Positions 20,910-51,353 of a DNA stretch of 64,000 nucleotides are shown in pieces. Within the stretch, counting starts at the first letter, position 1. Every line of letters begins with the position of its first letter. The DNA is from Dioszegia crocea. Taxonomy: Eukaryota > Basidiomycota > Tremellomycetes > Tremellales > Bulleribasidiaceae. The translations under genes were made by a program, and so were the position numbers. The stretch is from NCBI GenBank assembly GCA_001600615.1, contig BCKK01000007.1, forward strand, positions 402,431 to 466,430, given 5' to 3'. The notes below the pieces were generated by a model. That model was not told the origin of the DNA. It saw nothing but the letters and a program-made list of their open reading frames with translations, and searched no databases.

Positions 20910-23168
20910 ATGTTGCAGTCCCTGGTAGATCACACAAGGGGCGTCTTCACCACAGATAACGGAGACCCCGTGAAAATCTGGATCGACCCTTCACTTCCCT
21001 CATATTCGGACCTCTATCCCCTCCTCCAAGCGCATCATGCGGAAATCTCCATCCGACATGGCGATATTGAAACGCGCTACATCATCTTGGCCCCCTCGTC
21101 AATGAAGATCTACGATAGATACTGCCATCCATCATGGCTGCCAAAATGCGGTAAACACCGATATCAGCGTTTACTCCAGGCGAAAGGGGTGGATGAGTGG
21201 AGACATAAGGTGTTGTTGACGGATAGTTGGCCGGAGCGGTGTGTAGAAGCAGGAAGAATTTTGGGTGAGGATGATGATTGGGGAGGATGCAGGAAGGGAG
21301 GGTGAGTTACGAACCGAGCAGCGCTGATTCAGTCCGCCTGTACTCACAGTGCGACCTAAATTACCCTCGGTCAGATCAGAACTTGTCGCTCGCTTGGTCG
21401 CCGAAGTTGCACCAACCTCAAGGATCCATGTTCTACCTCCCGCAGCGCGGTCTGTTACTGTTCCCAATGAGGCACAGCCCTCGCCAACACTTGCCACTCA
21501 GAACGACCAGTCTGCGCCATCCGCCGGGACACAACCATCACCTGTTGTCGGCCCCACGGATCACCGCGAAGCGACAAATTCTCCTAGACCTTCAATACGG
21601 GAGGCTTCCCAAGACAGCATTGGTCCCTCGCGCCGATCTCGTCCCTCTCGTGCGCGCTCTGGCCCGATGGGGACTGTGGCTCGAAAATCCGAAAAAGAAC
21701 TTGAAGCTATCTTTAGCGAGGTCATTCCGGACTACCTCAGCGGGCGGAAAACGGTTCATCAAATAGGCGAAGAGCTCGCAGAAAAGGTGAGCGCCCTAGC
21801 AACTGAGCTGACTACAGTATCAAACGTATACAGCCTCCACTTGGATTGTGCAATTTGCCACCATTCGCAATCGCAGGGGCCGATTCGCCAACCGAGCAGA
21901 TATGGCGCTGGATGAACTCTGCGCGATGCACCTCCTCCCCCACGTGGAGCCTCTTTCCGACAGCCCTCAGTCCAAGATGAGGAAGATATCATTCGCAATA
22001 CGCACCCGTTGAGTCTTGTAAATGGGCGACATTATCAAAATGTCACACGGCGACTGGCGCTTGATGTGAGTGAATGTACTTCCATGCTGATTAGAATCCG
22101 AGCCATAACGAAGAAGGATGGACCAGGGCATACCTCGATTGGAGGAATGTAGCGGGGAAGTACAAATACTCCGATAGTGTCAGTTATGAACAATACACCG
22201 GTATCTTCGCAACATACTTGCCAATGATCAGGCGTGGAGCATCTTTGAACGAAGTATGCAACCGTCTAGTGAGAGAAGTAAGTCACTGAGCGAATTCGCT
22301 AATACCAGCGTCCTACTGTCAACAACTCAGCTGCAGAATGGAATGTCCTCTTCGGGAATTGGTTACGAACCTGTCCGATATCAAACCGACCGGATACACC
22401 CCCTCTACCTGCTGCACGAGCTCCAATTTCCGCGGGCTTACCAGACAGACCGGCTACACCTCCGGTAGCAGCGAAGATATGGACCAAGGGGGAATTGGCA
22501 AAGATCTTTAAAGACGAGTTCGATGGACCTGGCTGGCAGCCTCATGAAGTAGCGAAGGCTCTTGAACATTCTGTGAGTCCCACCGATGGCCCGACTGATG
22601 ACAGACCGGAATAAGTAAACGCAGTTTGAGCAGATGGTATTTCAATTGGAAAGCAGACCAGCCGCCTTTCCACAACATCCGGCAAGAAGTTAGGTATTCC
22701 AAAACAGGACCCGAAGTTCCCGCCGAAGCCACTCCTCCACCCACTGTCCCTTCCCAACGCCCGAGCGAGTCTTCAGGTCGACCCCCTTACAACCCAACAA
22801 AGGCATTCACAGCGGAGGAGGAGGCACAGATGGCGGTGTACATTGCGGGCAAATGTCCAACAAAATTTGTCGAGCCAATTGAAGAGGACTGGGAGGAGTT
22901 CGCAAGAGAAGTGAGTAGTCCTGAAGCTGGGCTGACTTAGAATCCTGGACGACCCATTACAGATTGGGTAGAGCATCATCAGCGATATCGAGCAAAAATT
23001 AACGATTGGGTGGTCAAGCTGGGCGGGACGGTCCCTGGGCGTCGCGCCAATGCGAGGCAGAGGACAGTCAGGAGGGCGGATTCGGATGACGAGATCGAAT
23101 TAGTGCAGGAGAAGAGGAAGGAATGGAAGCCTGAAGACGCTGAGGTGTTTGAGGTGATGAGTGATTAG
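20910..23168 (+). CDS. BRCT/Myb family protein, copy A (single frameshift)
   Basis: Exons 20,910-21,301, 21,333-21,786, 21,818-22,065, 22,095-22,277, 22,309-22,572, 22,605-22,910, 22,941-23,168. Order: BRCT-like domain (exon 1, with K-I-W-I-D-P, A-E-I-S, Y-C-H-P-S-W-L and ending D-D-W-G-G-C-R-K-G-G at a phase-2 intron), Pro/Ser linker, four helix-turn-helix-like modules (types alpha, beta, gamma, alpha), then a C-terminal Rap1-type Myb (F-T-A-E-E-E ... D-W-E-E-F-A ... P-G-R-P-I-T-D-W ... R-Y-R-A-K-I). There is no second BRCT. Every junction is in phase except exon 3, whose 248 nt are one short of a codon multiple: the frame changes between about 21,895 and 21,960, near a CTCCTCCCCC run. Probably nuclear and DNA-binding, by architecture. 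Copy B follows on the same strand. Confidence 0.75.
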
Positions 23169-23392
23169 ATGTGGAGAGTAGTTTTTTGTTGCGCCAATTT
23201 GTATGTATCTTGGATTTTGTTAAGTACGACTGTAGGAGGCGACGGAGTGCACCCCCCGCGAACATGTCGATGGAGTCGTTGTAGTGCCAGCACATCCGGG
23301 AAGGCACCAACAGCGATCATCGATCCATCCTTCGGCCTCGGCCGAATGAACCAAAATGTCAACACCAGTTCCTGCTTCTTACTTCAACCAGT

Positions 23393-25585
23393 ATGACCGC
23401 CCAGGGCGAAAGTCTGCTCACAGCGGCCGTTGAGCCCATGAAAGTATGGCTTGACCCTACCTTGCCCTCTCCACGCGATTTAATCACCCGCATAACAACA
23501 CACGGCGCCGAAATCTCTCTCGACCACAACGATCCCTCAACATCCATCCTTGTCCTTCACCCGTCCTCTGTTGACATATTCAACGAGTACTGCCACACAG
23601 CGTGGCTACGTCAACCCGGACGGTTGCGATATCAGCGGCTCCTGCGAGCTGGAGGTGTAGAAGAGTGGAAAAGAAAGGTGATTGTGACGGATGATTGGCC
23701 GAAGTTGTTGGACACTGGGCAGGTATTGGAGGAGGATGATTGGGCCGGGTGTCGCAAGGGCGGGTGAGTTATATTTTCCTAGCGAATATCTCTATAGCCT
23801 CTCAAGGCTCGTCGAGAAGCGGAGGAGTGATGCTTGTGGTATTTCGGACGGCTAGAGGCAATCTACAGTAACGCTGCTTAGGCCTCCCTTCACCTCCTCA
23901 TCACAGATCTGGTCTGGAAACGTGAAGGACCGTGTACAGATCAACTCTCAGTGCTGACAGCCAGTCCACCGGTGGATCCATCGTTACAACCTCGGCCCGC
24001 TCGACCGCGAATGCCCCCAGCCCAAGCCCCAGTCCAAATCCAAGCCCAAGCCCAAGCCCAGCCACCCACCCCACCCCAACCTGACTCTCATCACTCGACC
24101 CCCGAGCCAGCCGCACCCGCGCCTCAAGCCTCGAAGCCTACACGGTGGCAGCTGGTCGGGCAGACTCCTCCTCAAATACTCCACGGGCTTAGTTTCTACA
24201 TCACCAAGGGCCGACTAGGGCGAAAGCATACCATAACATACATAAGAGTGAGTGTTTCTTAAGATCCAGCTGATGTCAGTCAAGCGGCGGCAAAGTAGTG
24301 TCCAACGTGCAAAACGCGACACACGTACTCGCATCAACAGCCATACTCGCTGCGGCGCAGGAAACATCCATCATGATCGGCTCGGAAGGCGCTGAACAAG
24401 CCTGGTTTGTCGGATTTGACTGGATTGAGAATAGCTGGGAGAAGGGACAGCTGGAGAGGGAAAGCGATCTTGTCTGGGGAGGAGGTATACCAAAGCAGAT
24501 GACTGCACCATTGGACGAACCCCTGTCGTCTTGGTTGACGCCTGCTGCGCTAGGCCCGATCTTTACCGAAGTTCACAAGGCGAGATCAAAAGGTCGAAGT
24601 CGTTTCCAACTTGCAAAGGAGCTTGCAGATCAGGTATGTCCCAGGGGAGCTCGGCTGACGCTAGTATGAAGGTGTATACCGCAGTAGAACCTTTGAGACG
24701 CTGTACGAGCAATGGCGGAATGGCATGGGTTGTTTTGCTTCCTCCGATGAGAGCGAAACGTCGCCCGCGCCAGACCTCGAGAAGGTGCTCAGAGAGGCTC
24801 ACTTATTGAGTTTCCTGCCAAGTGCCGAGAAAATACCCAAATACTTGAACATGATCGTAAGTACACTACCTGCCAAGCTAATTGTAGAATCCGCAGTATT
24901 CGGAGCAGGTCTGGTCGACCATATACAAGACCTGGCTAGACTTCTCCGCTCCGTTCCAACTGAACCCTGCCGATGTCAACTACGGAAACTACATCTCCTC
25001 ATTCCCATCTTACATGCCGAAGATCAAGCGGGGCGTCTCACTAGTTGACATCTCTCGGCGCATGGCAGAAAAGGTGAGCCCAAACTGAACTTCGCTTACT
25101 TCAGTACGGCCCTTCCGGTCCTACCGCTTCAGACTTCCACGTCTACTTTGGAAATTGGCTACGCAGAGGCGATATCCCACCAGAACCTATAGCGCCAGCC
25201 CCGGCGCCAGGCCCGCCTGCGGGGCGCACAACGAGAAACGAGCTGGCAAGGATGTTTAAGGCGGATTTCGATTCCGAAAGTGTCCCTTCGAGTCAAGTGG
25301 CTGCAGCTTTGATCGGAAAGGTATGCCTTGTCCCTTCACGGCTGACAATAGACGTCCTTCAGTGCCAATACGATCGTACTCTATTTCGACGCTTGGCGAG
25401 CACACGAAGGTGTCTTTACGAGTGTCAAGGCTGAGATGGCATACACTGGGGGTGTAGGACCTGTGCACAAGCCCAGGGAATCAACGGAGGAGAGAAATAC
25501 AGCCAAGCGGGCAAGAGCCGTATCGGGTTTGGTATCTGCGCTGGAGGAGGAGAAAAGCAATGACAAGCGGGCGAGAAAAACTTGA
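23393..25585 (+). CDS. BRCT/Myb family protein, copy B (two BRCT-like domains, no Myb end)
   Basis: Exons 23,393-23,763, 23,965-24,247, 24,280-24,633, 24,665-24,856, 24,888-25,073, 25,105-25,320, 25,352-25,585 give 611 aa without interruption. The first BRCT-like domain ends D-D-W-A-G-C-R-K-G-G at the family's conserved intron. A Pro/Gln-rich linker (Q-A-Q-A-Q-A-Q) leads to a second BRCT-like domain (I-L-H-G-L-S-F-Y-I, G-G-K-V-V-S-N, F-D-W-I-E-N-S-W). Four helix-turn-helix-like modules follow (alpha, beta, gamma, alpha), then a Lys/Arg-rich tail. The terminal Myb of copies A, D and E is absent. Intron 1 is long (201 nt). Likely nuclear. BRCT domains usually bind phosphopeptides or mediate partner contacts; the ligand here is unknown. 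Confidence 0.8.
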
Positions 25586-25909
25586 TCGCGGATCGCAATG
25601 AGGTGAGTACAGCGCCGATGACTCGCTGACTTCAGCCAATATATGCCTCTAGCTCTCACGTAGCCAACCACCGACCAACTTACGCGGGTCATTGACGGGA
25701 TCTCTGCCCTCAAACCCCTTGCAAGTTGCCCCTCAGCGACGGGCACACTGCACGGTGAAGCCAGGGTCAGGCGTACTGGACCGGAGTGCAAAATCAGTGC
25801 TTGTTACACATCCCGCCCAGGGTCCATAGTAACCATCCGCAGCGTACCGAGCCGATGCATGAGTGATGGTGATTGCTACAGATTCCTCTTCTTTTCCTCG
25901 CGCCAGTCC
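25586..25909. other. Short gap with an unused intron-like signal
   Basis: Just after the copy B stop there is a good intron-like sequence (GTGAGT donor near 25,602, CTGACTTCAG acceptor near 25,635). It may be a spliced 3' UTR or a remnant of the lost Myb exon. No coding frame continues from it. Confidence 0.35.
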
Positions 25910-26403
25910 TCACAACGATCCACCCATCCCCGCACCAGCCGCCATACGCTCTTTGCCCACCCGCGCAACGTAAGACTTTGACACCTGATCAAAAGCTGCC
26001 ATGTAGAGGTTCATACATCTTCCGAGGCATTGCTGCGGGTCAGCTATGGCCAGGATTACTTGACTATCGCCAAGGGAACATACCTCTTCTGAAGATGTCA
26101 ATGATGATGATGGCGTCTTGATACATTTCTCAAAGCACTACAGATTAGCTTTAATATAGCCTAGTCTTACATTCTCATTCATCTTTGTAATCAACTGTTG
26201 AGCATTCGCCATTGCCAACTATCCCATCAGCACTATCTCCACGAGGTACAGAAAACATACCTCTTGTTGGATCTGCTGCTTCATTTGCTCCTTCCGGGCA
26301 TTCATGTCTGTCAATCAGCCAAAAGTTTCCACAGCCCCATTCCAAGCTCACCGGTCGATCCACCCGCTCCCGAGCTGCTGGCGTTGCTAAAGAATGAAGA
26401 CAT
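25910..26403 (-). CDS. TIM13: Mitochondrial import chaperone Tim13
   Basis: Small TIM chaperone of the intermembrane space; with Tim8 it escorts hydrophobic precursors to the inner-membrane machinery. Five exons (26,352-26,403, 26,261-26,307, 26,171-26,218, 26,084-26,134, 25,910-26,032) give 106 aa. The twin CX3C signature is complete: C-F-E-K-C in exon 4 and C-L-G-R-C in exon 5, followed by N-L-Y-M-A-A-F and V-S-K-S-Y-V-A-R, which fits Tim13 better than Tim8, 9 or 10. There is no cleavable presequence, as usual for this family. It is divergent from the mitochondrial gene at 26,509, with only about 105 bp between starts, so the two probably share a promoter. Confidence 0.95.
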
Positions 26404-26508
26404 GTTGTATGGTGAGAATGTATGATGTCAAGAGGAGGATGAACTTTTTGGGTGGCGGAACCAATCCGGTGGAGGCAACATCTTCTATCGATGATACATC
26501 CATCTATG

Positions 26509-27969
26509 ATGAGCCGTCAGCCCTACCGCCTAGCCCTCAGGGCCCTCTCCCGTCCCCTAGCTCCTCATGCTGCGCTCCAACGGCCCCTCCGATTCGCATC
26601 ATCGGTCCCGTCCCCTCGCTCATCCCTTCCCCCCATGCCCCCCGATATGCCCCGGGAGAACTATGCCGAGCCAACCCTCTACACCCTCTCTTACCTCTCC
26701 CGCATCATCCGCTTGCTCCTCTACTCTGCCCTTGGAATATCCGGCGCGGGTCTGATCGGGTTCGAGGGTCTACACCTATACATCGAACATCGCCTAATGG
26801 CCACTCCCTCCGGTCCGCCAGAGGATGAATATGGATGGTCGACCGAGAATGTCTCTTGGACAGGTCGGAATGGAGGAACGGACCCCCGTCTGGGTTGGAA
26901 AGCGCGACATGCACTAAGAGGCGCGTGGATATGTCAAGAATGGGGAGCAGGAGGTCCAGCGGGGAGTATCGGCCGCAGTATCCATCCTGGACCTCGGTCA
27001 GGAACGGGAGTGGAGGTGAATAAGGTGGATAGGGGTTATGAGCTTGCGGAGGAGTATATCGATCTGGCAATTGGCGAGGCGGAAAAGAGGGGGATAGTAT
27101 TCCCTGGTCAAGGCAAGGCGGATCAGACGGCGGTGGATTTGCTCTTGCTCAAAGCTGGCGTGTTGGAGAGATTGGCCACAGAGCAGAGTCTTCTACAGGC
27201 CAAGAGGGTCTATCAGGACGTACTGGATAGTCTGCCAGAGACGGAAGTGGCGAGGAATGTGAAGCTGTCTGGGAAGATTGGGGATTTGGCACAGAGGACA
27301 GGAGGGGATGGGAAGGGTTGGTGGGCTGCCGGATTACAGCGTGCGGGGATACAACTACCCTCTGAAACCAAAGAGGGTTGGTTTGCAAAGACCGATACTC
27401 CACCTACATCAATCACACTCCCTCCCCCTGTGCTACGCGCTGTGATCGGTCTACTCATTTCGACCGAAGCAAACCTTGCGACTTCAGCGCAATACGCCGA
27501 ATCTGCTAAAATCCAATCATACGCCTTATCACTTCTACCTCCACCTTCATCCTCCCTCGATCCCTCAGCGGCCTTACAAGATATATGGCTATCCCATCGA
27601 AAAGCCCTCATCACTCTTCATTCCGCTTCCGTCTCACACGCTCGTAAACTCCCAGACGCAGCGATTGAATCATCTACCGCTGCTGCCGCGCTCATCGAAA
27701 CTGTCATTCCTCGAATTCCCTCCCCACCCATCTCTAGCTCCCTAAACCCCTCGGCCAAACTCCTAGCGCGCGATGCACAATCCCTCGCGGCCGAGGCGAA
27801 CTTTACGCGTGGCGTCTTGCTTGAGAGAAAGGCGGATTTGGAGACAGCCGGAGAGTGCTTTGAACGGGCGATGGGTCATGCCGGTGAGAGGGGAGCAGAA
27901 TGGGATAGGTACTGGAAGGCATTTGCTAGAGTTAGAGAAAAGCTAGAGAAGCAGAGGGGTGTAGCGTAA
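26509..27969 (+). CDS. Mitochondrial inner-membrane TPR-like protein (possibly Mgr3-like)
   Basis: Single-exon gene. The start at 26,509 (M-S-R-Q-P-Y-R-L) gives 486 aa with a classical Arg/Ala/Ser-rich presequence; an upstream in-frame ATG at 26,452 is possible. A membrane segment (about residues 70-90, L-L-L-Y-S-A-L-G-I-S-G-A-G-L) precedes a helical region with TPR-like A/L/Y spacing (Y-E-L-A-E-E-Y-I-D-L-A-I-G-E-A) and a last repeat near the C-terminus (A-G-E-C-F-E-R-A-M-G-H-A). One membrane helix followed by TPR-like helices matches Mgr3, an adaptor of the i-AAA protease, but no specific signature proves it. A different TPR-type mitochondrial protein is the alternative. Confidence 0.7.
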   Translation: MSRQPYRLALRALSRPLAPHAALQRPLRFASSVPSPRSSLPPMPPDMPRENYAEPTLYTLSYLSRIIRLLLYSALGISGAGLIGFEGLHLYIEHRLMATPSGPPEDEYGWSTENVSWTGRNGGTDPRLGWKARHALRGAWICQEWGAGGPAGSIGRSIHPGPRSGTGVEVNKVDRGYELAEEYIDLAIGEAEKRGIVFPGQGKADQTAVDLLLLKAGVLERLATEQSLLQAKRVYQDVLDSLPETEVARNVKLSGKIGDLAQRTGGDGKGWWAAGLQRAGIQLPSETKEGWFAKTDTPPTSITLPPPVLRAVIGLLISTEANLATSAQYAESAKIQSYALSLLPPPSSSLDPSAALQDIWLSHRKALITLHSASVSHARKLPDAAIESSTAAAALIETVIPRIPSPPISSSLNPSAKLLARDAQSLAAEANFTRGVLLERKADLETAGECFERAMGHAGERGAEWDRYWKAFARVREKLEKQRGVA

Positions 27970-28119
27970 ATTAGACATTAGCTATACTCGAGATTGACAG
28001 CCTTTGATCAACATGACGGGGAACATCAAAGGATTCGATCAGACACAGGGGATTGAGGTCTTGAGGTACTGCATGGTGGTCGGGCGATTGTACACTGGGT
28101 GACCGAATGACAACATCAA

Positions 28120-29301: not shown

Positions 29302-29441
29302 GACGTCGTGGTGGATCGTTGAATCCTGTAAATTAGGTAGAACGCCCAAGGTGAGAGATTCTGTAGGTCGAAATTAGTCCAGACGTAATTCCCGTGGCAA
29401 GGCGAATCTGCTATGCCCAATCCATGCGCATCATCCTATCC

Positions 29442-33095: not shown

Positions 33096-35254
33096 TCACA
33101 ATACATCCTCAACCCTGCTTGGCTGTAAGGCTGAAGGGATCTGCGCAAAATGGGCGTGCCGACTCCTCCACTGCCGATAGTAAGTCTCGATCCGTTTTGG
33201 CAAATACCCCGGAAGCTATCATCAGCCACCGCCTCCATTTGACATACCTGTTCCGCCACCTCTTCAGCTATAACGCTCGGCGCCAAAGTCGACGAGTCGT
33301 AATAGCTTTTGAAGATCCCCGCCAGTCGCGTCTCTAGAAACCCAGAACGATATTCCTGGCCCCGAGAATCGACTCCCCCATTTGGATCCGCCATCGGGCG
33401 AGGTCGAGAGGGGATAGACGATGGACGAGGTATAGAGTTGGCCATGGCATTTACATAAGGGTTCGATTGAGGCGGCGCCTCTTTCCCCGGCTCGCCCGAA
33501 GAACCGACTTGCCCATGTAGTTCCGGGTGAGGTCGCGGGGGAAAAGTCGACGGACGAGGTATAGGGTTGGGCATGACATTTACATAAGGGTGCGATTGAG
33601 GGGGCGCCTCTTCACCTGGCTCGACCTTGCGTAACCAGTTACCTAAGTGGAGGGCAAACATCTCGGCCGATAGACCGTAATCGGGATGCGCGTTTGAAAT
33701 GGCGGTGGCGAGGTCGGGAACGAGCATGCCTCTCCTGATGAGCGGGAGGTATTGTGAGAATATTGAAGCGTACGCAAGACAAGCAGTCTTGTCGCCGACA
33801 TCCTCGAAGCGGCCATTGCCCCGGCGCCAGGATCTGTACCGCAGATCCCAGGTCTTCACGTTCAAAGGCAGACTGCGATACTTCACTGATCAGCAATGAC
33901 GGGGACAAAACTCACGTTTTGAGAGAGAAACGCAATGGTGTCTTGATGAGATTTCCCACTTTTCAAAGACTTTGGGTGGTGAAGTCGGAACAGCTCATCA
34001 AGCTGTTGTCTACCGTCAAATTTTTTGCTTGCCGGCCCACAGTCGCGCTCTTCCTGTTTATCAGTGAGAATTATCGCTGCACTCACCTCTTCGTGGCTCT
34101 CGTCTGCCACATCGCCAATAGTGACCCTCGGCTCAGTCGGGACAATGCGCTCGTAGACAAAGTCGGCCTCATCCAAGAGCCGGCCGGCAGTCCATGAAGC
34201 CTCCAACCACTCATAGCTCACACACCAGATTTCCATATTGGACGTGCGGCGAATTACAGCTCGGAGCTCCTCCGCGTCCTCCTGTAGAACAGCGCTGAAG
34301 CAGCAATGTGTGGCCTCTCCAATGGTTTTGACTATGGTGCCAGAAGATGCCTGTCGTCAGCGTTGTAAGACAGCAACTCACCTTAATATTGGTCACGGTG
34401 ATCTTACGCGCGAATCTCCCGGTACCAAGGTAGATACGAAGGCCTTTGAGGATTATGGGCGGTGTCAAGGATCCTTCTTGCCATACACTACTCAAAGAGG
34501 TTACTTTCTTGCGCCACTGAGCGGGAGAAAGGACAACTCTGTGGTATTGGCGAGGAGCGACGGCGGGCGCAATTGTCGGATTGACTGTGGCTTCGGGCCT
34601 ACGGTCTGAGGATGGACCGGTCGGGATTGGCCTGTTCTCCTTCTGGGGCTCGGTGGCAGTCTCGTCATGGGTGACGACTGAGCTTGTTCCAGCTGCCACA
34701 GCGACGGCCTGAAGCACAGACCTCGCTCGAGTTGGGAGCTCAGAAATTCTGCGCGGTGCCTCCGCGCTTTTGTTACCGACCAGACTTTTAGGTGTACCCT
34801 CTCGCATAGCGGTATATTGACGCTTGGTTGGTTTTGGAGGTCTACATTAGCTCTTTCCCATAAGCACTCACCCTCCCTTCCTGGCTCCTCCCCAATTATC
34901 CTCATGACCCAAATATCGCCCCGCAGCAACGCACAACCCTGGCCATTGTTCCGTCACCATCACCTTCCGCCTCCACGCGTCTGCTTCTCCTGCTCGCGCA
35001 CGCCGCTGATATCTGAACCTTCCCGCCGTAGTTAGCCATGAAGGATGGCAATACTGGTCAAAAACACCAGTGGAGGATGGGTGAAGGATGATGATTGACG
35101 TGTCGGGCTCGGAATGATCAGTCGAGATGGCAGCTCCGTTGATCTGGATGAGGGATGAAAGTCCCGATTGGGTGGAGAGAACCGGGTCGAGCCAGATCTT
35201 GACAGCGGCCTGTCCGTTTGCGAACAATGGCTGGCCCGCTTGGGTGCCCGACAT
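33096..35254 (-). CDS. BRCT/Myb family protein, copy C (two BRCT-like domains, no Myb end)
   Basis: Exons 34,872-35,254, 34,382-34,841, 34,087-34,350, 33,916-34,053, 33,248-33,880, 33,096-33,215 give 665 aa, open throughout. An in-frame ATG at 35,293 would add 13 residues. Order: first BRCT-like domain ending N-W-G-G-A-R-K-G-G; linker; second BRCT-like domain (L-K-G-L-R-I-Y-L, W-C-V-S-Y-E-W-L-E-A-S-W); a beta and a gamma helix-turn-helix-like module; a linker holding a tandem duplication of about 33 residues (E-A-P-P-Q-S-x-P-Y-V-N twice); an alpha module; stop. The terminal Myb is missing. The intron before exon 5 needs an AAG acceptor to stay in frame. Nuclear role inferred only from domains. 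Confidence 0.78.
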
Positions 35255-35494
35255 AGCGCCTGGTCGGGTCGTGAAGTGGATAGATGAAGTCAAGTGAAAT
35301 TGTATTTCGGCAGGCTGGCTTTTGCCATCTCAACTCCCCACGCCCGCTAGGAGACATTACCCACCCGAGTCGTAGATATCTTCACATACAAGCTACGTAA
35401 CGAGCTACATAAGGTCTACATAAGCGAATTTCGTGATGCCCATCATATCATCCTCGAGTCAAATATACAGAGTCAAATATACAGCCCCAACCCA

Positions 35495-38400
35495 TCAATC
35501 TTCGTCCGAGCTGAAGCACAAATCAATCACCATACCCGACACATCCTTCACCACTACCGAGGCCGGTGTCGCCACTGCGGTTGACGAACCCACACCTGAA
35601 CTCGCCCCTCGCCGGCTTGAGCTTCGCCTCCCCTCGACGTTTCCGCCAAGTTTGGACACCAAGTCATCAATCCTCGCGCGATATAGTCGATAGTGATCAG
35701 CCCAGTCTTGGACAGTTCGACTGGGATTCTGAAGTCAGCACAGTTGCGACGGAGACTCACCATTTTACCAAAGTCTTTCCAGTCCTCTTCGAAACCCTCC
35801 GTCGTTTTCGGCGACCGGCCCACGACATAAGTCGCCATCCTCGCCTCCTCTCCATTCGTAAAGTCGACTTTCGGCCGTTTGGGCGGGTCAGACCGGGCCA
35901 ACGGGGATTTGCGCTTGGGCAAGGGGATAGACTTGGGCTTTGACGAAGGTTGGAATTCTTCAGGAACACTTCGCCATGTTTCGCTTCTGTTGACCCATAG
36001 CCCGTGCCACCTCGCGATGATGTGGGCTTTATAACCTGTCTGTAAAGTTAGCTGCGCATTTGTCGAGCACGAACCAGTGGAGCAACCTCCTCGCCAATCT
36101 CCTTATGCGACTTAGCTGAGCCGTCATAGTCTCTTTTGAAGATTTTGGCATGTTGCAATCTCTTCTCCATTGCCTCCTCGTTGATTTCGGACTGGGTGCG
36201 AAGCCCCAGGCCCACATAAGGACCGGGTCGCCCTGAAGTAGACGGCTGTGGCACATTCTTCCGGGTAATCGAGTCTGGCTTGACACTTCGTAGCCAATTT
36301 CCGAATTGGACTTTCCAATGACGCTTGGACTTTTTCTGGGGATGATCCTTCGCAAGCTTGGCTGCGACGTCGTCCAGCGACACACCTTTGACGATGAGAG
36401 GGAGGTATGACTTGAATGTGGAATTAAAGGCGGTATCATCGGAATGCTCCGGTGCTGCTGCAAAGCGTTCCGTCCTGAACAGCCAGGAGTGGTATGTTTT
36501 ACGCCAGCCCGATTTGGATAATTTTGTGTGCTACAGATGTCAGCCCGATTGCGACCCCATACGTACGGTCTTAGCCAGTTGATTGTACACACTTGCCGCA
36601 CTTCCACCTTTCCTTAAGCTTTGGGGGTGGGCGTCGCGCAGTATGTCGTGGAGCTCTGCCACTGTGTATCGCTGGTTCCAGCGGTCCTTCTGACCTGGGA
36701 GTCGACGGTGGCCAGTACGCGATCCCTCTTCGCTACCTTCGCTTTCGTACTCCGACTCCCCGTTAGCTCAATCAGGGATCTACTCACTTCGCTCTCCTCA
36801 TCTTCATCGGAGCTTTCATCCGAGTCCGATACAGCCTGAAAGTGATCGCGTGCGGCGCTGGCCTTTTGAGTTGATGGACCGGCCAGAGTTTTTGGCTTTG
36901 AAGCAGAATCGGACTTCTCAGCTGATTTGGGGATGCGTGCCGAGAAGGTGGGTTTTCTGGAGCGATCACTGGTTTCAGCCTTGAACGGACCCAAACTCAC
37001 CCTCCGTCATCCACAGCAGTAACTTTCTCCGCCTGGCTCGACATCGATCTCAGCCGATTACCAAGGTGGATGTTCCACTCCTCCTCTCCAATTTCAGGCC
37101 TGGACTTGGCGAGCCGAGCCGAAATATCTCTTAAGGACATTCCTTTCTTGATACGATCGATGTATCTGGTGAATGTATCGCGATGAGCGAGGTAGCCAGT
37201 CTCTTTGACGAGCGGGGCGAATTTGTCCTTGCCAGCAAGCCACTTGGTGTACTTCCGATTCCACTGGTCGGAGCTCAACCTGGGATGCTGGACATGAGCT
37301 CGATGGAGACTCGGACTCACCGATTGAGCAAGATGCTGCCTTAGCTCCATAAGACTCTTGCCCTGCAGCAGGCAGAGAGGATGAGCATTCCGTAGAGCAT
37401 CGTCCAACTCGTCAATGGTGTATATCACATTGTAGGATGGGCGATAGGACCCAAAGCGGCTGGATGTTGTCAAAGGTAGGTCAGGTGGCTCCGATGTGGC
37501 CTTTGGACCAGCAGATGGCATAGCGACTTTCTTGGACGATGCAGGCAGCACACTATCATCAGCTAATACCAGCCAGCAACGTACCGTTTCTTTCCAACGG
37601 GGCCACCCTCACTGTCCACTCTCGCCGACTCGTCCACACCCGGATTTACGGTCCTCAGCCAATCGCCCAACAGTCTGCTCCACTCTGAGGCGTCCCGTTC
37701 AGGACGGCTTTTCCCAAGCCCATCCGCAACCTCCGCGAGCGAAAGTCCTTGCTTGATAGAAGGCAGGCATTTGGCAAATATTTTGACATGTTTGAGATGT
37801 GCGGTATGTTTTGGCATTTGAGCAAAGCGTCCAGTCCAGCTAAGCCAATCTTTGTATGTCTTGTTCCAGGTGGTGTGGGACAGCTCTTTATGCTAGACGT
37901 TCAGCCCCGCCTCGAGATAAGCTTACATTTTCTTCAAGCTCCCGGTCGACATCGCGTGCTGTGTTGCCCTCGACCAAGCTCAGAGGATGGACACTGCGGA
38001 AGACGTCTTCGAGGTATTCAACCGAATGCTTTGGAATTCCACGACGATTGGGGCTGGCTTGAGCGGACTTAGATGATGCCTGGGGTCCCTTAGCTGTAGT
38101 CACAATCACAGGACTATAAACTCACTCCGCTTTTGGGCATCTGTGCGGAGTCTTGTGCTGGGAAGGAAGAAGTCGAGCGTGACAATGAAGATTTTGTGGT
38201 GGAGGGACCAGCTTGCTGGTTGTCTCTGTGGGGACCAGGTATTAATGAGAGGGAGGCTCTCGGCCCAGTAGGTGGTATGCTGTCGGTTGTGGACGGCTGG
38301 GACCCGCGCGTAGGGACCATTGGTGGATTCATTGCAGGCCGAGTCGAGGACGATACTTTGGGTGGTCTGCAATCAGCCATGTACTTAAGCAGACGTCAAC

Positions 38401-38748
38401 TCACGCTCCCTTCCTACATCCTGCTCAGTTGTCTTCTTCTCCTAGCATCCTCCCTGCAGCAACACATCGACCTGGCCAATTCTGCGTGACAATCACTTTC
38501 CCTCTCCACAACTCTTCCACTTCCCGAGGCCTGACCTCGTCAGACGGAGGTAGCCATTCCGGATGACAGTAGAGATCAAACAGATGGATCGACGTGGCCG
38601 GGTTCAGGACCACAATGTCGGCCAAAGCGTGATCATCGCACAACTCGGCGCCGTGGCTTCGAACGAGTATGACGAGGGCGGAATATCCTGGTAGATGTTT
38701 GTCGAGCCAGATTTTCACCGCCTCAGATCCAGCCGGGGCGAAGATCAT
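35495..38748 (-). CDS. BRCT/Myb family protein, copy D (three tandem module pairs; one nonsense codon)
   Basis: Eleven exons (38,405-38,748, 38,126-38,366, 37,927-38,088, 37,585-37,892, 37,321-37,552, 37,001-37,287, 36,788-36,968, 36,567-36,755, 36,075-36,530, 35,761-36,039, 35,495-35,728) sum to 971 codons. A BRCT-like domain is followed by three tandem beta-gamma pairs of about 115 residues (marked by H-P-L-S-L, H-P-L-C-L, H-P-Q-S-L and by G-D-W-L-R, G-N-R-L-R, G-N-W-L-R), an acidic Ser-rich linker (S-D-E-S-S-D-E-D-E-E), an alpha module and the terminal Rap1-type Myb. The second BRCT is absent. All phases agree, but TGA at 38,425-38,427 replaces the conserved Trp of the D-x-W-G-G-C motif in BRCT-1. 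That is a single-base nonsense change, a sequencing error or readthrough; translation could also start downstream. Confidence 0.75.
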
Positions 38749-39180: not shown

Positions 39181-41536
39181 TCATCCCTCCTCAAGCAAAC
39201 TCCTCAGCTTGACAATCAATCCGTCTATTTTGGCTCTGTGAACTCCGTGGTGCTTCGCCCAGCTTGCTGCTGATCTTGTAGGGATCTGTCATCAGCCTAG
39301 GCCAAGGTCATCTCCACCCCAACTTACTTGACTCGCAAAGGCGCGCCAATCCCTTTCTACCGGCTCGGTAACCTCAGGCGTGCGACCGAGAATATACGCC
39401 GCCATTTCTGACAATTCTCCCCTGGTGAAGAGCTGTAGTTTGTGTCGTTTGGCCGCATCGGTATCGTCTACAGAAACGATATTGCGTTTGGGTGGAGGAA
39501 CGCCATGGTCCGGCCGAGGTGAGGGTTGCCATTCTTCGGGGATATCCTTGGATCTTTGATTTCTTCCAAGCCATCGTCCATATCCATACCAGACCGTTAC
39601 ACTCTGACTGCTAGATCCGAGCTGACAGTCAGCCTTGCGTATCTATGGCGAACCTACCCTTCTGGCGATTTCTTCTCCCGCTTGTTGATGCCTTGTCGAA
39701 TGCACATCGTACTTCTCCTGGAAGGCTTTGGCGAGTGCTAGGCTTTTCTCCGACGTCTGGATTGGTCGACTCGGAGTCAACGGAATCTTCGCCAATTCGG
39801 TCAAGGGAAGTTTCGGTAGAGCTGCAATTTCGACGCATGGCAATTTTGCGACGTCCAAAGTCCTGAGCCAATTCTCGAGCAGGGTAGTCCAGCCATCGAC
39901 GGACTGCCGTATCTCGGGGTGAGCCGCGGCTAAAGTCGCGGCGATATCGTTGATAGGAACGCCTTGCGTAAAGAGAGGGATATATCGAGTAAGGATGGGG
40001 ACAAGGGTGACATATGCGGTCTCATTGGCCGAGGGCTCGAACCCGTTGGTGAATTCTCGCCACGAACGGTATTTTCGGCGCCAAGTGCCGATGCTCCATC
40101 GCGAATGCTGTGAGGTCAGGCAAGGGCCATGTGACTCCTAGTGATGACTCACATATTTGGCCAATTTCCAAATGATCGTGCCCTGCTCAAGACCGGATTT
40201 GAAACTAAGTGGATGCAATTTGCGTAGTATGGCGTCAGCCTCCTCGAAGGTGTACCGCAGTAAAGGATGTGGAAGGTCGGGTCGGGAGTGGGTAGAATGC
40301 TGAGATTGAGCTTCGCCGGCGCTAGCGGGCGTCGATTCATAATCCATCTTGTCGTCAGTATACAATTCAAATTTCCAGCTCACTTACATCCTGGCCAAAC
40401 TCCTCGCTAGTCACGCTGGATGACGGTCCAGCATTTCCAGTAGGAACGGCGTGTTCAGGTGCTGGGTTATAGAAGTCGTACTCGTACTTAAATCCCGCCT
40501 CAGGCAACAGTCGCTCAGCCGCAAAACAGGCCTTCAGCCAGTCGGGGTGCAAGCAACATACGCCCTCTGCCACCGCTTCTCCAATCAGCTTCCACAGCGC
40601 CGCCGCCTTTTTCTCAGAAATCGGAGACAGAACAGCATGCGATGATGATTGTACATCCTCGCAGATCATTCCACCAAGGCCCTGGACGTCAACTTCAGCT
40701 GAAGTATCGAGGCCTGATAGACGTACAACGATTTTGGAGGCGATGTGTTTTCGATCTCCCATCTTGTCCAAGTAGATTCTCAGCCCGTGAAAGAATTCAG
40801 GCGGGTCTTCTTTTCCTCGGCGTCGAGGAGCCCTCCTAGGCATTGAGTCAGAGACGATATTGTTTTTGCGGCGTTTAGGGTTGGGGCCGTCGACTGCCGA
40901 ACGAATCGGAATGGTGCGCTTCGCGGCCCGTCCAGTGTCCACAGGCGCCGATCTCCGTTCAGAAGGTCCGGCTTGTTGCTCTTGGCTGATCAAGTGGTGT
41001 CCGGTCTTCGGATGAGGAAGCGGCGATGCCGCCGGAAGCGAGACGGGCGCGGTTGCCTCAGTCGGATGCTCAATGCTGATGGGGCTGGAGGGCGCGATTC
41101 CCCCCTGACCGCTAGCGGCGGGAGAGGCAACACCAAAGTTCGATTTCGGAGGCCTGTATTCAGCTGTGCCCAATTCAATAGCTCACCATCCCTTTCTGCA
41201 GCCGCCCCAATCATCCCTTTCACCCAGAAGTCTGTGGGCGCGTACACACCGCCACGGCCAGTCCGCCGTGACGATCACCGTCCCTCCCGTCCAGGCTCCA
41301 GAATGCGGACTCTGAGGCAAGATCCATCCTGGATGACAATATCGATCAAAGATAGGTTCAGACTTCGGATGAAGGACGACTATTGATGCGGAAGAGTCAT
41401 CGTCCGTTATCTCAGCGCCGTGATGGCGGTGAAGATGGGCGAGGCGTTCATACGTTACGAGGGCGGGGTCGAGCCAAACTTTTACGGGCTTGTTGTTACG
41501 GGTGATGAATATCATCCTTTGGGGATCGCCCTGCAC
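39181..41536 (-). CDS. BRCT/Myb family protein, copy E (complete architecture)
   Basis: Exons 41,187-41,536, 40,727-41,153, 40,388-40,681, 40,153-40,347, 39,658-40,107, 39,328-39,621, 39,181-39,285 give 704 aa with no interruption (697 aa if the second ATG at 41,515 is used). This is the fullest member: BRCT-1 (K-V-W-L-D-P, A-E-I-T, Y-C-H-P-G-W, ending D-W-G-G-C-R-K-G), a Lys/Arg-rich linker with a likely nuclear localisation signal (N-P-K-R-R-K, R-A-P-R-R-R), BRCT-2 (F-H-G-L-R-I-Y-L, H-P-D-W-L-K-A-C-F), a beta-gamma pair, an alpha module and the terminal Rap1-type Myb (F-T-R-G-E-L ... R-D-W-R-A-F-A ... A-S-W-A-K-H-H). By analogy with Rap1 it may bind DNA and a protein partner; the target is unknown. 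Shares a short upstream region with the MFS gene. Confidence 0.82.
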
Positions 41537-41709
41537 TCATCGGTGCAAGGTATGTAGGGCTTCCAATGGCTAATGGCTCCCTCTTGAGCTCGAGATGCCA
41601 GATGCGAAGTGGATGCCGGCATCAATGACGCCAGGCACAGAGGGTAAATTTGGCTCACTCTTCGCAATCACCCTTATCTGATACCAGCCATCGCGCCTAT
41701 ACGCCCACG

Positions 41710-45255: not shown

Positions 45256-45832
45256 GCTTGTGTATGTGGTGTATGCACGTCAGTTGTATGGCAAGGGCAG
45301 GTCTCGAGATTGGCTGCGACATGTGAACGCGGCTGAAATTTTGTCTCCGTTACGGCATTCTTTGCGGGGAAATGCGGGGTAGCTGGGTGGAGGCAGACCA
45401 CCCTATGACAATCGCGCCATGACTTGGGGCGGCTGCTCTACAGCATGCGAAGGTAGACACACTGGGCCTGGCACATGAAGCTCACATCATACATTGCTGG
45501 TTGGACTCAGAATCTTAGGTTAGGGAAGGAAGGGTTCTCTATTGGAATTTCGTCGACAGACTTGCATGTCAGCACGGCGCCGCCAGGGTTTGGTAATTTT
45601 TGAGACTCACTGCAGGGTCACTTGTTGAACGGGACGCCCGAAGCGGACTTCAGACCCTTGATCCGCAGCTCACAACCGAAACAGCTGTCCGCATACTGGA
45701 TCAGGCTGTGATCCTCGCCGTGAATGGCACCGCTGACCTGCAGGACAGCGAGCGACTGTTCGCAGCACTGTTCATTCTCGTAGCTGATTTGTTAGGATGC
45801 CAGCACATACAATGAACTGGAAGGTTGACGGA
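45256..45832. other. Intergenic stretch
   Basis: Contains the RRP1 promoter and the 3' end of the small gene at 45,833. A plus-strand open frame at 45,600-45,815 has no support. Confidence 0.4.
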
Positions 45833-46111
45833 CTAATACGCATGGCTGGGCCACTCGATTTTTGCCCAGTCGGCCTTGCCACCGGGGAATTCTTCCTCGC
45901 GGAAATGATAGGGCGGGAAGACTTCCTGTAGTTCCCACAAACCGGCGTTGATGGGGTGGAGGTAAGGCTTAGCGAGATACTCCGCATCGGTCATCGGTTT
46001 CCACTTGGGAAAGCGGATTTGGATGTCCGCCATGATCATCGCGTTCCGGAAAGGATGGTCTAAGGGGAGGTCGGCGTTGGTGGGTGCATGGTTAAACGTT
46101 GAGGTGGACAT
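45833..46111 (-). CDS. Small hypothetical protein (92 aa)
   Basis: Single-exon frame of 92 codons with balanced, non-repetitive composition and many aromatic residues (F-P-K-W-K-P, L-W-E-L-Q-E-V-F-P-P-Y-H-F). It ends W-P-S-H-A-Y. No signal peptide, membrane segment or known domain. Composition and its own gap on both sides argue for a real small gene. The family is not recognised. Confidence 0.6.
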   Translation of the reverse strand: MSTSTFNHAPTNADLPLDHPFRNAMIMADIQIRFPKWKPMTDAEYLAKPYLHPINAGLWELQEVFPPYHFREEEFPGGKADWAKIEWPSHAY

Positions 46112-46607
46112 TTCGGAATATGATCAAAGGGAGGATACTGGATTTGCTGCTAGGATGAGCATAGACTCAGAGCACTGGTGAGCGGAAAGAGAAGGGAAGG
46201 AAGGTGAAGAGAGGGGGGAGGTATGCGCACCTGTAGGGCCCAGAGACTTTTGTTAGTTTAGCCTACGTGTATTGATTGATCGTAGCTAGATTCTGGCGAC
46301 TTGTAGTATGGCTCGATAGGTGTGGGAATGAATCCTGATACGTGGATATGGATGAGAGTAAATGGAGGAAAGCCGAGGGGGAAGGAAAGAATGAGGGGGT
46401 GGAGCGGACAAGAGCCTCACCTCCACATTCCGCCACTAAAAGCCACGTTTCGCGTGTGTTTCAATCCAGTCACGTGAAGCCGCGGCGATGACCGCCGTGC
46501 ACGATACGTCATCGGTTTGATCGCGATTGCTGGATTTTGGTCCACTTTTGCAGGAAGAGGTCAGCCAGTAGTGTACATACAGTACCGCATACATACCCTG
46601 GAGCCAT
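46112..46607. promoter_or_regulatory. Divergent promoter region of the 92-aa gene and UVE1
   Basis: About 500 bp between two divergent starts. An intron-like signal in the leader of the small gene is possible, but no element was identified with confidence. Confidence 0.4.
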
Positions 46608-48908
46608 TTGATGCTTCTATCGCTCAGAAATCGAGCAACCTTCGTCCTACGCTTGATTACGCCACACTCGGGTCCGACTCTCCTTCCCCAGGCTGTCCTG
46701 ACCCGGCCATTCGGCTCCTTCTTCTCTTCTCCACGCAGTCTCGACATGCCGCCTCGGAAGCGGACCGCTCCAGCACCATCTCGGAGGTCTACTGCGTCCA
46801 AAGCTGCGGTAGAGGATCAGGATGACTTGACTCCGCCGCCTGTTCTGACCGAGGTACAGACCTTGGTGAACACGTCGGTCGATGCTGTAATTGCGCGGCA
46901 CAAGCGGGTGGTGAAGAAGCCCACTTACGTTGAAGAAGCGGAGGAGGAACAGGAAGAAATTGAGGATGTGAAGCCAAAGAAGGGCAGAAAGCAGGCGATA
47001 GCTTCGCCTGACGAGCTCAGCGCGGCGGAGTCAGCAATGACGGAAGAGACGGTCGAAGCTGCGCAAACGCCAAAGACGAAGCCGACGAAGCGGAAGAAGA
47101 AGGCGGACGCGGACGAGGATGGAGATGATGCGACTCCTGCGAAGGTGAAGAAGGCGCCAACGCCTCGAAAACCGACGCCAAAGAAGTCGAGGATGGTGAA
47201 GGATGAGCCGGAGTTCGACGAGGACGGGAATGAGATTGTCAAGAAGAAGCGGAAAGTCAAGGTTGTGCCGAAGCCGGTGTATGATATACCGCCTGTTGAG
47301 AGATTGGAGACAACATTTAGAGGTGAGTTGGTGGCTGTGCGAAAGGACGATAGCTGATATCTAGGCCGAATAGGGTACGCCTGCCTGAACACCGTTTTGC
47401 GGTCGATGAAGCCCGACAGCATCTTCTGTTCACGGACATGTCGGATTGCTAGCATAAAAGAGGAGGGTATGGAGCTGCCCAAGGCACTTGCTTTGATGAA
47501 TTGTCGAGATCTAGTCAAGATGATTGAGGTCAGTTCGATGTCACACAACTGCCGCCCCAGCTAACACTTCAGTGGAATGAGCAGAACAAGATCCGTTTCA
47601 TGCGTCTTTCATCCGAAATGTTCCCATTTGCCTCTCATGCCGAATATGGCTACAATCTAGAATTCGCCGATAAAGAGTTGAAAGAGGCCGGAGCACTGGC
47701 GAGGAAGTATGCCCATAGACTCACTGCGCATCCGGGACAGGTCAGTAGTGTCTGGCGCACCAGGTTGTTGACTGACCGTCTAGTTCACCCAGCTCGGGTC
47801 TCCCAAGACTGCTGTAGTCACTGCCAGTGTGAGGGAGTTGGAGTATCAGTGCGAGATGATGGATCGCATGGGGCTAGATCAGGATGGGGTTATGATGTAA
47901 GTTGTATTTCCCCTTGATGATTCGGAGCTGATGAACAGTATCCACATGGGAGGTATCTATGGCGATAAGGAAACAACCCTAGCCCGGTTCAAGGAGAATT
48001 ATACCAACAGGCTGAGCGATAAGATCAAGAAGAGATTAGTGCTGGAGAATGACGAGGTGAGTATTTTAGCCTGAGTGAGATTTCGGCTAATCGACAGATC
48101 TGTTACAACGTGGACGACATCATGCCAGTCTGCAATGAGCTAGAAATCCCAATGTGAGCTGGTCCTCCCACAGTGTTTCGGGCAAGGAGACTAGCTTACA
48201 ACCCAGAATTTTCGATTATGTACGTCCATTACCGCCTAGGTTTAGCTGACAAGCAGCACCACGATTGGATCTACCCCTCTTCCCGCCCTCCATCCGAGCT
48301 TATACCACTGATCAAAGAAACGTGGGATAAGCGTGGGATCAGGATGAAGCAGCATCTCTCCGAACCCCGTCCTGGCGCAGTTAGTGTGATGGAGCGCCGG
48401 GCACACTCTGATCGGTGCGCCCGACTTCCGCCAGATTTGCCGGATGATGTGGATCTCATGATTGAGGCGAAGGACAAGGAGCAGGCTGTGTTTGAGCTGT
48501 ACAGGATCTAGTGAGTCCCTTGCCATGGAGTTGCTGACCTTCAGTGGGATTGAGGATGTCATTTGGGACAACCTTAGACCGCCAGATTTGAACCCTGGTA
48601 TGCATACCAAAGGCCGTAAGAGCAGTCTAAAGAAGTGAGTGGGACGCTGAGTCGAGGTCCAAAGCTGATGTTATAGGAAAGTAAAGGAGACTGGGGATGT
48701 GGATGAAGATGGGAACCCGGTCGAATTGGATGATGTGGAGAAAGAGGGGGATGGAGGTGTGGGCGACGAGGGTGTCGAAGAGCCTCGACTGGTGAAAGTC
48801 GATGAAGAGGTCAAGGAGGAGGTGAAGGCTGTTGCTAAGAAGCGAACGCCTAGGAAGAAGGGCAAGAAAGCGGTTGAGGAGGAAGTCAAGGAGGAGGCCG
48901 ATGAGTAG
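46608..48908 (+). CDS. UVE1: UV damage endonuclease (UVDE/Uve1)
   Basis: Apurinic and UV-photoproduct endonuclease that nicks 5' of damage, an alternative to nucleotide excision repair. Ten exons (46,608-47,322, 47,365-47,528, 47,573-47,740, 47,784-47,896, 47,939-48,056, 48,098-48,153, 48,207-48,219, 48,257-48,510, 48,545-48,634, 48,677-48,908) sum to 640 aa. The TIM-barrel core begins G-Y-A-C-L-N-T-V-L and includes [17 protein letters not shown] and F-D-Y-H-H-D-W, with the metal-binding His and Glu blocks of the family. Charged Lys/Glu-rich extensions flank it. The first ATG gives an Arg-rich, acid-poor presequence like a mitochondrial signal; a second ATG at 46,746 (M-P-P-R-K-R-T-A) gives a nuclear-looking start. 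Exon 7 is only 13 nt. Confidence 0.95.
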
Positions 48909-49196
48909 AGGGCGGTCCTGGCGGACGGCGGTCCTGAGCTCGGAGGGCAATACCGAAGTATGAACATCTCGTCAAGTAGAAGAGTGACGCATGTGCACAA
49001 CCGTTAGAATGTAGACTCTCGGTAGAGGGGGTGAGCTTCTTCATAATATCTCAGGGGCAGATGCTCAGTTCGCCCAGAGACTTCATACAGCCTTCCCATA
49101 GCCTTCACTAGCTTCACTCGGGACCAAAATTTGCCACCAACTCATTCCTTGCCCAAGGTTTGGAAGGCCCAAAGCTCCATCCATCTCACCCACATC

Positions 49197-50413
49197 ATGA
49201 TAAGATCCATAGCGACGCGCCGCCTACTCTCTACGAGATCACTCGTCCAGCTCGTGCAACTCCCCAAACCATCCCGGATACGATTTCGCGGCGTTGCGAT
49301 ACAAGCTCCCGGAACGTCCGACTCCCAAATATCTGAAAATGTCGATGCCTCACCCACGGCCGATACTTTCCGAACCCAACATCCCTTCGCAGCCGTAGAG
49401 ACTTCCGAAGAGTCTACATCGGAAGAAACAACCCCATCGGACACTCCAAATCCCCCACATACATCTTTACCCGCTCCACCACCCTCGATCCCTTTCCGAC
49501 CTCTATACCTTCAACACCCCTTTGACACGCACGCCTTTGTCGCCTATCTAGAAAAACACGATGTGAGCCCCGGGACGTCTCGAGTCCTCATGGAGGCCGT
49601 TAGGCGATTTATCGTCCGGCGGGGAGAAGTGGCGCGAGACTGTATGTTGGGGAAAGAGGACATGGAGAATGGGGCGTATCTCTTTCGGGCCGCACTCAGC
49701 GAATTGCGGACGGAACTAAGTGTGCGGACGCGAAATGATGGGACGGCATTGAAGGCTATGTCGAGTGCGATAAGGAGGGAGGTGGATCAATTGGAGCAGA
49801 AGTTGAAGGAGGATGTTCAGACTTTGAAGCATGAGTGGGTTGTGGCTTGAGCGTGGAGAAAAGGCCTCGTGCTGATGTCTTAGTATCGAGATGGATATGA
49901 ACAACCGTAAGGCAGATACAAGGACCGAAATGAAGGGATTCGATATGCAAATCGAGGTAAATTCATACTGCTTGAGCGATGAGGAGCGCTGACGTCGCAG
50001 GAGATCAACAACAAGTTCACAATCTCTTTAGGAGACCTACGAACGGAGATCGAGTCAGCCAAATGGGACTCTGTCCGTCGTGCAATTTGTACGTCTCCGT
50101 GCCATTGCACACCACCCCTAACGTCTCAGCTATTATTGTCGTCGTCGTCCTCTTCGGTGTCGGAACTTCAATCTACTATGCCCCCCCCAACATCCCTCCA
50201 CCTGCCGCAGCACCTCTCCCCAAACCCACTCCGCCTGCAGTCATGCGCGATATGAGCATAGGGACGGACGATGAGCTGATGGGTGATGAGGCGGTTGTGA
50301 CTATCTCAGAGGAAAGGCTGGAGAAACTGTTGATGGATAAGGGAGTCGGGGATATTGCGCTGAAAGCAAAAGCGAGGAAAGGGAAAGAGGAGATTATGGT
50401 GGATCGGATATGA
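49197..50413 (+). CDS. FMP32: Mitochondrial coiled-coil protein, Fmp32/CCDC90 (DUF1640) family
   Basis: Exons 49,197-49,834, 49,884-49,956, 50,001-50,088, 50,130-50,413 give 360 aa. A presequence (M-I-R-S-I-A-T-R-R-L-L-S-T-R-S) precedes a Pro/Ser-rich linker, then the DUF1640 core H-P-F-D-T-H-A-F-V-A-Y-L-E, a long coiled coil (Q-L-E-Q-K-L-K-E-D-V-Q-T-L) with I-E-M-D-M-N-N-R-K, and a C-terminal membrane helix (I-I-V-V-V-V-L-F-G-V-G). Fungal members support cytochrome c oxidase assembly; animal relatives include MCUR1. An in-frame ATG at 49,131 exists, but the 49,197 start gives the better targeting signal. Confidence 0.9.
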
Positions 50414-50645
50414 GATTGGGGCCACGGGCCAGGTTCAGAAGGACGATAACTACTATCCAGCCCTACGACGCCAGGGCGGATGTCCGAAAGCTCGACCTCG
50501 GTCGCGTCTTGTCAGGTGGAGGCCTTGTCCAGCCTTGTCGTACGGACCGTCTCGCGCGTGGTATCTCCCAGATAGAGCTCTAGATTCACACATCTGACCT
50601 ATGATATACGCACAACAGACAAAGTTCCTCAACGATACCATCCGA

Positions 50646-50740
50646 TAGGCTCGACGCAAGCCCCGTCCTTTCTTCGTGGCAGTGAAGAGGGCTCCTTCCG
50701 GGGGATACAGACTCGAGACGTGGGGCTTAAGTCGAGCCGA
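50646..50740. mobile_element. 95-bp MITE-like element related to the one at 14.5 kb
   Basis: Terminal inverted repeats TAGGCTCGACGCAAGCCCC (50,646-50,664) and an imperfect complement at 50,722-50,740 (two mismatches or so). Its internal segment ACAGACTCGAG matches, in reverse, the core of the 57-bp element at 14,525-14,581. No clear target duplication is visible. It sits at the broken end of BRCT copy F. Confidence 0.75.
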
Positions 50741-51353
50741 CCTACCCGGTGATGTCGTCTACCTCGCTGTCGCCCTCTCTCTCCCCATGATCCGCTTGGA
50801 CTTGGTGCGGGATGCAGACGAGCCCGAACCCGGTCTGAAATGAGTTTGCTGAAATCGGTGGTCGTTTTGACGGACTGCTGTCCTTTTGGCACAAATCTTG
50901 ACTCACCCTCCCGTCCTACACCCGCCCCAGTCATCTTCTTCGCCCAATAAGGATCCCGCCTAGACACATTTCCGGGCCGATCTGCCGTCAATATCACTTC
51001 CCCGCCCAATTGTTCACGCCCTTTTGCCCCTGGTCCTGCGCCTGAGGCAGAGCTTCTGGAGACAAAGAGTCAGGGTGACAGTATCTTCCGAAGGCAGCTG
51101 CAGTGGAGGGGTTGAAGCGCAGAATGTGAACATTGGAGAATTCGTAAGTGGCCGAAATGAGCGCTGCGTTTGCGCGAAGCAATTTCGCAACGACGGCGTA
51201 ATTCTCAATGATGGGATCGACCCATACCTTGAGGCGGGCTCCCTCTGATGTTATAAATATCGCAACCGTGGGGTGTTTGCTGTGTGCTCCTCGCCATCTA
51301 CTGTAGATTAGATGCAGGTGAACTTGATTCTTCACAGCGGTGGCTCGCAACAA
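50741..51353 (-). pseudogene. BRCT/Myb family copy F, decayed BRCT fragment
   Basis: The first exon of the BRCT/Myb family is recognisable from K-V-W-V-D-P through Y-C-H-P to V-I-L-T-A-D. A frameshift then moves the end, C-V-stop-A-G-S-L-L-G-E-E-D-D-W-G-G-C, into another frame with a TAG. The family's conserved donor still follows it. Downstream only a short stretch of the next exon remains before the 95-bp MITE; the rest of the gene is gone. Two separate lesions plus the loss of about 2 kb make this a clear pseudogene. No proper start codon is left at the expected place. Confidence 0.8.

Follow-up and report, generated by a model that had tools for sequence, protein, structure and literature searches.

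We found that a 64,000-nucleotide (nt) window of the genome of the basidiomycete Dioszegia crocea (positions 402431-466430 of contig BCKK01000007.1, here C7, in an assembly of 20.57 Mb and 17 contigs) holds a single cluster of six related gene copies, A to F. Their modelled products begin with a domain predicted to fold as a BRCT domain, add a second BRCT domain in some members and continue with a chain of small modules that closes, in three copies, with a Myb-like end. The family is best called a variant of the BRCT-plus-Myb chromatin proteins, with a layout for which titles and abstract starts in the literature gave no earlier description. The reading that we favour, and to which we give about an even chance, is a lineage-restricted, clustered nuclear family in which BRCT domains recruit partners and a chain of Myb or helix-turn-helix (HTH) modules acts on DNA or chromatin.

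Searching the whole assembly with the N-terminal domain of copy C gave seven matches, all seven inside the window: copies A to E (E values up to 2.8e-21, the lowest, 1.2e-86, being C's own), and F in two pieces (3.1e-10 and 0.0067). The 151-residue module-bearing exon of D gave eight matches, all within copies A to E. Because both searches match only at this locus, the family forms one genomic cluster. In window coordinates, A (20910..23168) and B (23393..25585) lie on the plus strand, and C (33096..35254), D (35495..38748), E (39181..41515) and F (50906..51279) on the minus strand. The initial annotation had described six copies of one N-terminal domain, carrying the motifs K-[IV]-W-[LI]-D-P, A-E-[IL], Y-C-H-P-x-W and W-P-x-x-C-V-x-A-G-R-x-L-G-E-x-D-x-W-G-G-C-R-K-G; the assembly search recovered the copies in the same places, and the listed residues were located in the domain. 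It had also proposed a tandem expansion within 30 kb. A local multi-copy family it is, but not a strict tandem, as the copies use both strands and unrelated genes are interspersed with them: a protein kinase, a Nop52-type and a CCDC90-type gene (all by Pfam), and a UVE1-like gene.

Gene models came from a simple gene finder followed by hand curation from three-frame readings, and gave lengths of 652 amino acids for A, 626 for B, 665 for C, 967 positions for D (one stop included) and 691 for E. Naming the module types m1, m2 and m3, we read A as N-terminal domain, m1, m2, m3 and Myb-like end; B as N-terminal domain, second BRCT (BRCT2), an extra m3-like module, m1, m2 and m3; C as N-terminal domain, BRCT2, m1, m2 and m3; and D as N-terminal domain, three m1-m2 pairs, m3, Myb-like end and an acidic tail. 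E has N-terminal domain, BRCT2, m1, m2, m3 and Myb-like end, is open throughout in its model, and is the sole copy with all domains and no lesion. F retains nothing but the first exon, decayed and frameshifted. Across the five models 35 introns have usable sites. Most have a donor of the GTGAGT type and, right before the acceptor, a branch site of the CTGAC type; the fourth intron of C and the third of E require AAG acceptors. Modelled introns are 29-54 nt long, except for one of 116 nt in A, which is doubtful, and one of 118 nt in B. The latter, B intron 1 (23764-23881), compares with 30-38 nt for its counterparts in the other four models and may have been enlarged by an insertion.

The N-terminal domain is encoded by exon 1 of A (20910..21301, +), B (23393..23763, +), C (34872..35254, -), D (38405..38748, -) and E (41187..41515, -). 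The phase-2 intron said to follow it in all copies is present in 5/5 modelled copies (A-E; 41154-41186 in E); F, which the domain profile finds in two pieces, retains the matching donor in a shifted frame. Two further copies carry lesions. In D, a TGA at 38427-38425 replaces the tryptophan codon of the conserved W-G-G-C, and in A the frame is broken between about 21850 and 21964, where the model bridges the gap with the doubtful 116-nt intron.

Over the ten pairs of N-terminal domains from A to E, pN was 0.31-0.38 and pS 0.68-0.87. These domains are 45-57% identical and the Myb-like ends 44-52%; the faster-diverging parts are the m1-m2 arrays (24-39%), the m2 modules taken alone (23-37%) and the second BRCT (28-37%). 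With silent sites near saturation and the proteins constrained, the copies are old and have long been retained, and for the same reason the stop in D and the frame break in A are probably recent, or assembly errors. We also considered that most of the cluster is pseudogenic, such that E alone works and the other copies are old, decaying duplicates with no family-level function. The lesions in D and A, the fragmentary state of F and the lack of a Myb-like end in B and C would fit such a history. The constraint seen across A to E and the usable sites at the introns of all five models are unlike copies dead since duplication, and we regard this explanation as rather improbable.

The N-terminal domain matched no BRCT family, and indeed no Pfam family at all. 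Searches of PDB sequences with this domain, m1, m2 and the Myb-like end likewise gave matches at chance level. An AlphaFold model of the copy C domain showed BRCT topology with modest confidence, and a Foldseek search with that model placed human RAP1 at ranks 2 and 5 (E values 0.038 and 0.062). When the domain profile was aligned with the human RAP1 BRCT, just 9/700 shuffles reached the score. We infer, with modest confidence, that the domain has a BRCT fold. The second BRCT is present in B (24167..24483, +), C (34144..34462, -) and E (40481..40804, -), and A and D are without it. Pfam BRCT_2 found it above the cut-off of 27.3 bits in B (8.8e-10, 39.2 bits) and below it in E (9e-6, 26.3 bits) and C (5.4e-4, 20.6 bits), and a profile search of the PDB gave weak matches to BRCT proteins (PTIP, TopBP1; E value about 0.002). 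In 3/3 copies it is interrupted at the same position by a phase-0 intron (24248-24279 in B, 34351-34381 in C, 40682-40726 in E). It starts about 115 residues past the first BRCT in E, so the two do not form a packed tandem pair. Of the BRCT-like domains claimed at the outset, then, the second is recognized by Pfam and the N-terminal one by a predicted fold of modest confidence.

Profiles built from the modules themselves locate 23 of these (seven m1, seven m2, six m3 and three Myb-like ends), with one weak extra candidate in A omitted. There is one m1-m2 pair each in A, B, C and E and three in D; m3 occurs once per copy in A-E, with one extra in B. In A, the m1-m2 pair lies at 21967..22380, m3 at 22471..22700 and the Myb-like end at 22806..23027 (all +). 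In D, the three pairs lie at 37641..38031, 37039..37425 and 36276..36671, followed by m3 (35944..36176) and the Myb-like end (35642..35862), and E carries m1 at 40030..40257, m2 at 39850..40002, m3 at 39520..39759 and the end at 39199..39429 (all -). In the models, a phase-0 intron separates helices 2 and 3 in 18/23 modules: 7/7 m1, 2/7 m2, 6/6 m3 and 3/3 Myb-like ends. Profile alignment with hhalign related m1 to m2 (P 2.6e-7) and, weakly, m3 to both (P 1.9e-4 and 7.8e-5); kinship of the Myb-like end with m1 was not clear (P 0.022).

What these modules are is less sharply defined. AlphaFold2 predicted six helices in two threes, at low confidence, for the second m1-m2 pair of D, modelled with the intron unspliced, and a fold search with that model found no useful match. 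Six Pfam families came up among the seven m2 members, all sub-threshold and none in more than one member: four HTH or winged-helix families, Clr5 and VAR1. For the seven m1 members there were eight, again none in more than one member and none plain HTH, led by the SUZ12 zinc domain (5.7e-4) and ROS/MucR (0.0078); the six m3 members gave one match (0.16). The HTH arrays proposed by the initial annotation thus gain from the helices predicted in threes and the weak m2 matches, and lose from m1, whose Pfam matches are not HTH. Net charge is mixed (-3 to +8 for m1 and m2, -5 to +3 for the Myb-like end), so some modules may bind protein instead of DNA.

One of the seven m2 members weakly matched the Sleeping Beauty HTH (E value 0.14), which, with the lesions in A, D and F, raises the idea of domesticated or decaying mobile-element proteins in which transposase-like HTH modules were joined to BRCT domains. 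We consider this very improbable: Pfam found no transposase or integrase domain in the copies, the sole direct repeat of at least 60 nt within 15-55 kb of the window sits inside copy C, copies occur nowhere else in the genome, and the proteins are under long-term constraint. That repeat is a 103-nt stretch duplicated 129 nt apart at 84% identity (33395-33626, -), where a proline-rich linker joins m2 to m3.

We then weighed the relation to Rap1. By eye, the Myb-like end and human RAP1 have a starting F-T in common, and the end of A also shares a W-x5-R-Y spacing with human RAP1; this likeness was the basis of the initial assignment of a Rap1-type Myb end to A, D and E, but the statistics by themselves do not sustain it. 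We compared modules with Myb domains in 24 pairings, each with 60 shuffles, and reran the standouts with more. The strongest was m1 against yeast Rap1 Myb2, whose score none of 700 further shuffles reached, whereas m1 showed no signal against the human RAP1 Myb (9/60 shuffles reached the score) or yeast Myb1 (41/60), and neither m2 nor m3 did so against these two domains (60 shuffles each). The Myb-like end gave weak signals with yeast Rap1 Myb1 (10/400) and c-Myb R3 (3/400), and none with the human RAP1 Myb (11/60); its profile against human and yeast Rap1 Myb together gave P 0.089. Pfam Myb_Rap1 was found in D only (E value 4), and 0/3 ends taken alone matched any Pfam family. The end profile found nothing in B or C at an E value of 0.05, and PF00249 (Myb_DNA-binding) was unmatched in all five proteins, with 13 matches in the genome and none on this contig. 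A conserved end therefore stands, though none of these results establishes that it is of the Rap1 type.

A Rap1 C-terminal domain (RCT) is a feature common to Rap1 proteins, according to the available part of PMC3487762. Rap1_C was unmatched in the five proteins at an E value of 5. Past the aligned Myb-like end E has only 5 residues left, A 46 and D 48, against 84 positions in the Rap1_C model, which leaves an RCT no room. On this evidence the family does not qualify as Rap1 proper. It may nevertheless derive from Rap1: the initial proposal of a Rap1-derived or parallel family keeps a distant likeness, in the fold ranks of human RAP1 and the m1-Myb2 score, and lacks the RCT. A stricter version holds that the copies are true Rap1 paralogues, descended directly from a fungal RAP1, that lost the RCT and kept a telomeric or subtelomeric role. 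The BRCT results with human RAP1 and the resemblance of m1 to Myb2 speak for it, and there is precedent in Hansenula polymorpha, where, in the part of PMC6510891 available, RAP1 is duplicated and its telomeric and subtelomeric roles have diverged. Yet besides the missing RCT and the failure of the Myb-like end to match Rap1 Myb, the second BRCT and the long array lie outside the Rap1 layout given in the available part of PMC3487762, and the locus, at 402-466 kb within a 1.49-Mb contig, is not itself subtelomeric. We therefore hold direct descent with a retained telomere role to be unlikely.

A search of the assembly for a canonical Rap1 with PF11626 and PF08914 had no match but allows no conclusion, as prokaryote controls were equally silent. 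A pattern search found no TTAGGG arrays in the assembly, and none occur in the 150 terminal bases of 18 of the 34 contig ends. By eye, a subtelomere-like sequence is common to ends of contigs C4, C7, C11 and C12, and the ends of C7 and C11 adjoin short TTAGGGGG-like stretches.

Database searches found the family nowhere else. Among 5.8 billion proteins, neither copy E nor an alignment with four rows (A, B, C and E, without D) had a relative at E values of 1 and 10; each search scored the 7994 candidates sharing most words and required shared 5-residue words, so that distant relatives can be missed. For the control protein, that of the neighbouring UVE1-like gene, 2365 of 7996 candidates matched at 1e-10, with Kwoniella and Cryptococcus at the top. 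The database therefore covers Tremellomycetes, but because the control is a conserved enzyme it demonstrates coverage, not sensitivity. The initial remark that no family with this layout had been described agrees with these searches and with the literature searched, where titles and abstract starts, with poor coverage of subscription papers, contain no such description.

Returning to the reading that we favour, we propose that the N-terminal BRCT, with the second BRCT in some members, would recruit protein partners, and that a chain of Myb/HTH-type three-helix modules would anchor the protein to DNA or chromatin. The array would have grown as a module with an intron between helices 2 and 3 was duplicated, and since module number and sequence vary by member, each member could bind its own site or partner. 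The whole would act as a multi-valent nuclear adaptor whose array length and sequence differ among members. A more specific scenario, which we think unlikely, is that these are lineage-specific chromatin readers that split from a Rap1-type ancestor and widened their range of DNA recognition by duplicating single exon-pair HTH modules, with the N-terminal domain and Myb-like end conserved, in parallel to the zinc-finger arrays that track changing repeats, subtelomeres or mobile DNA. If our proposal is right, the BRCT-plus-Myb plan was rebuilt in one fungal lineage by duplicating a fixed-intron module. The greater divergence of the arrays relative to the N-terminal domain and Myb-like end makes the cluster a testable case of recognition-array growth. 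Basidiomycetes would also gain a candidate class of telomere or chromatin proteins; as far as the available part of PMC7952879 goes, such proteins have been little tested in fungi keeping canonical repeats, basidiomycetes included.

Two neighbouring regions deserve mention. The UVE1/UvdE UV-damage endonuclease gene (46611-48684, +) has many short introns in its model, and the best match of its protein is from Kwoniella shivajii (68% over 62% of the query). Beside the F remnant, 51539-54580 (+) contains two adjacent look-alike genes whose starts appear F-box-like by eye; two stretches scanned there gave no Pfam match above the cut-off.

Among known systems, Clr5-domain proteins (PF14420) resemble a module of the third m1-m2 pair of D (2.1e-4) and one m2 member (0.006), but both matches fall under the curated cut-off (21.8 bits in D and 17.1 bits in the m2 member, against 22.3), and across the genome Clr5 had one match, in copy D, at an E value of 0.47. 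Remodelling of telomere proteins in basidiomycetes is known (PMC7952879), and Tay1, a fungal duplex telomere-binding protein, shares the use of more than one Myb-type module; it differs in having two TRF-like Myb motifs, and the text of PMC7952879 does not mention BRCT. The TRF1 Myb showed no signal against the family modules, its scores being reached by 13 to 51 of 60 shuffles. Multi-BRCT repair adaptors (TopBP1/Rad4, REV1, XRCC1) share the BRCT fold and are not known to carry an HTH or Myb array. Six other BRCT_2 matches occur elsewhere in the genome, which on reading resemble other BRCT proteins such as REV1, Pescadillo and DNA ligase 4, the names being putative. The nearest comparison is with Rap1 of human (RAP1/TERF2IP), Saccharomyces cerevisiae and Schizosaccharomyces pombe. 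Here the plan is distantly similar, with a BRCT-like domain first and Myb-type modules after it, a predicted N-terminal domain like the human RAP1 BRCT and an m1 like yeast Rap1 Myb2. Unlike Rap1, the family lacks the RCT, has a second BRCT in three copies, exists as six clustered copies and, in place of one or two Mybs, carries an array of three to seven modules, followed in three copies by the Myb-like end.
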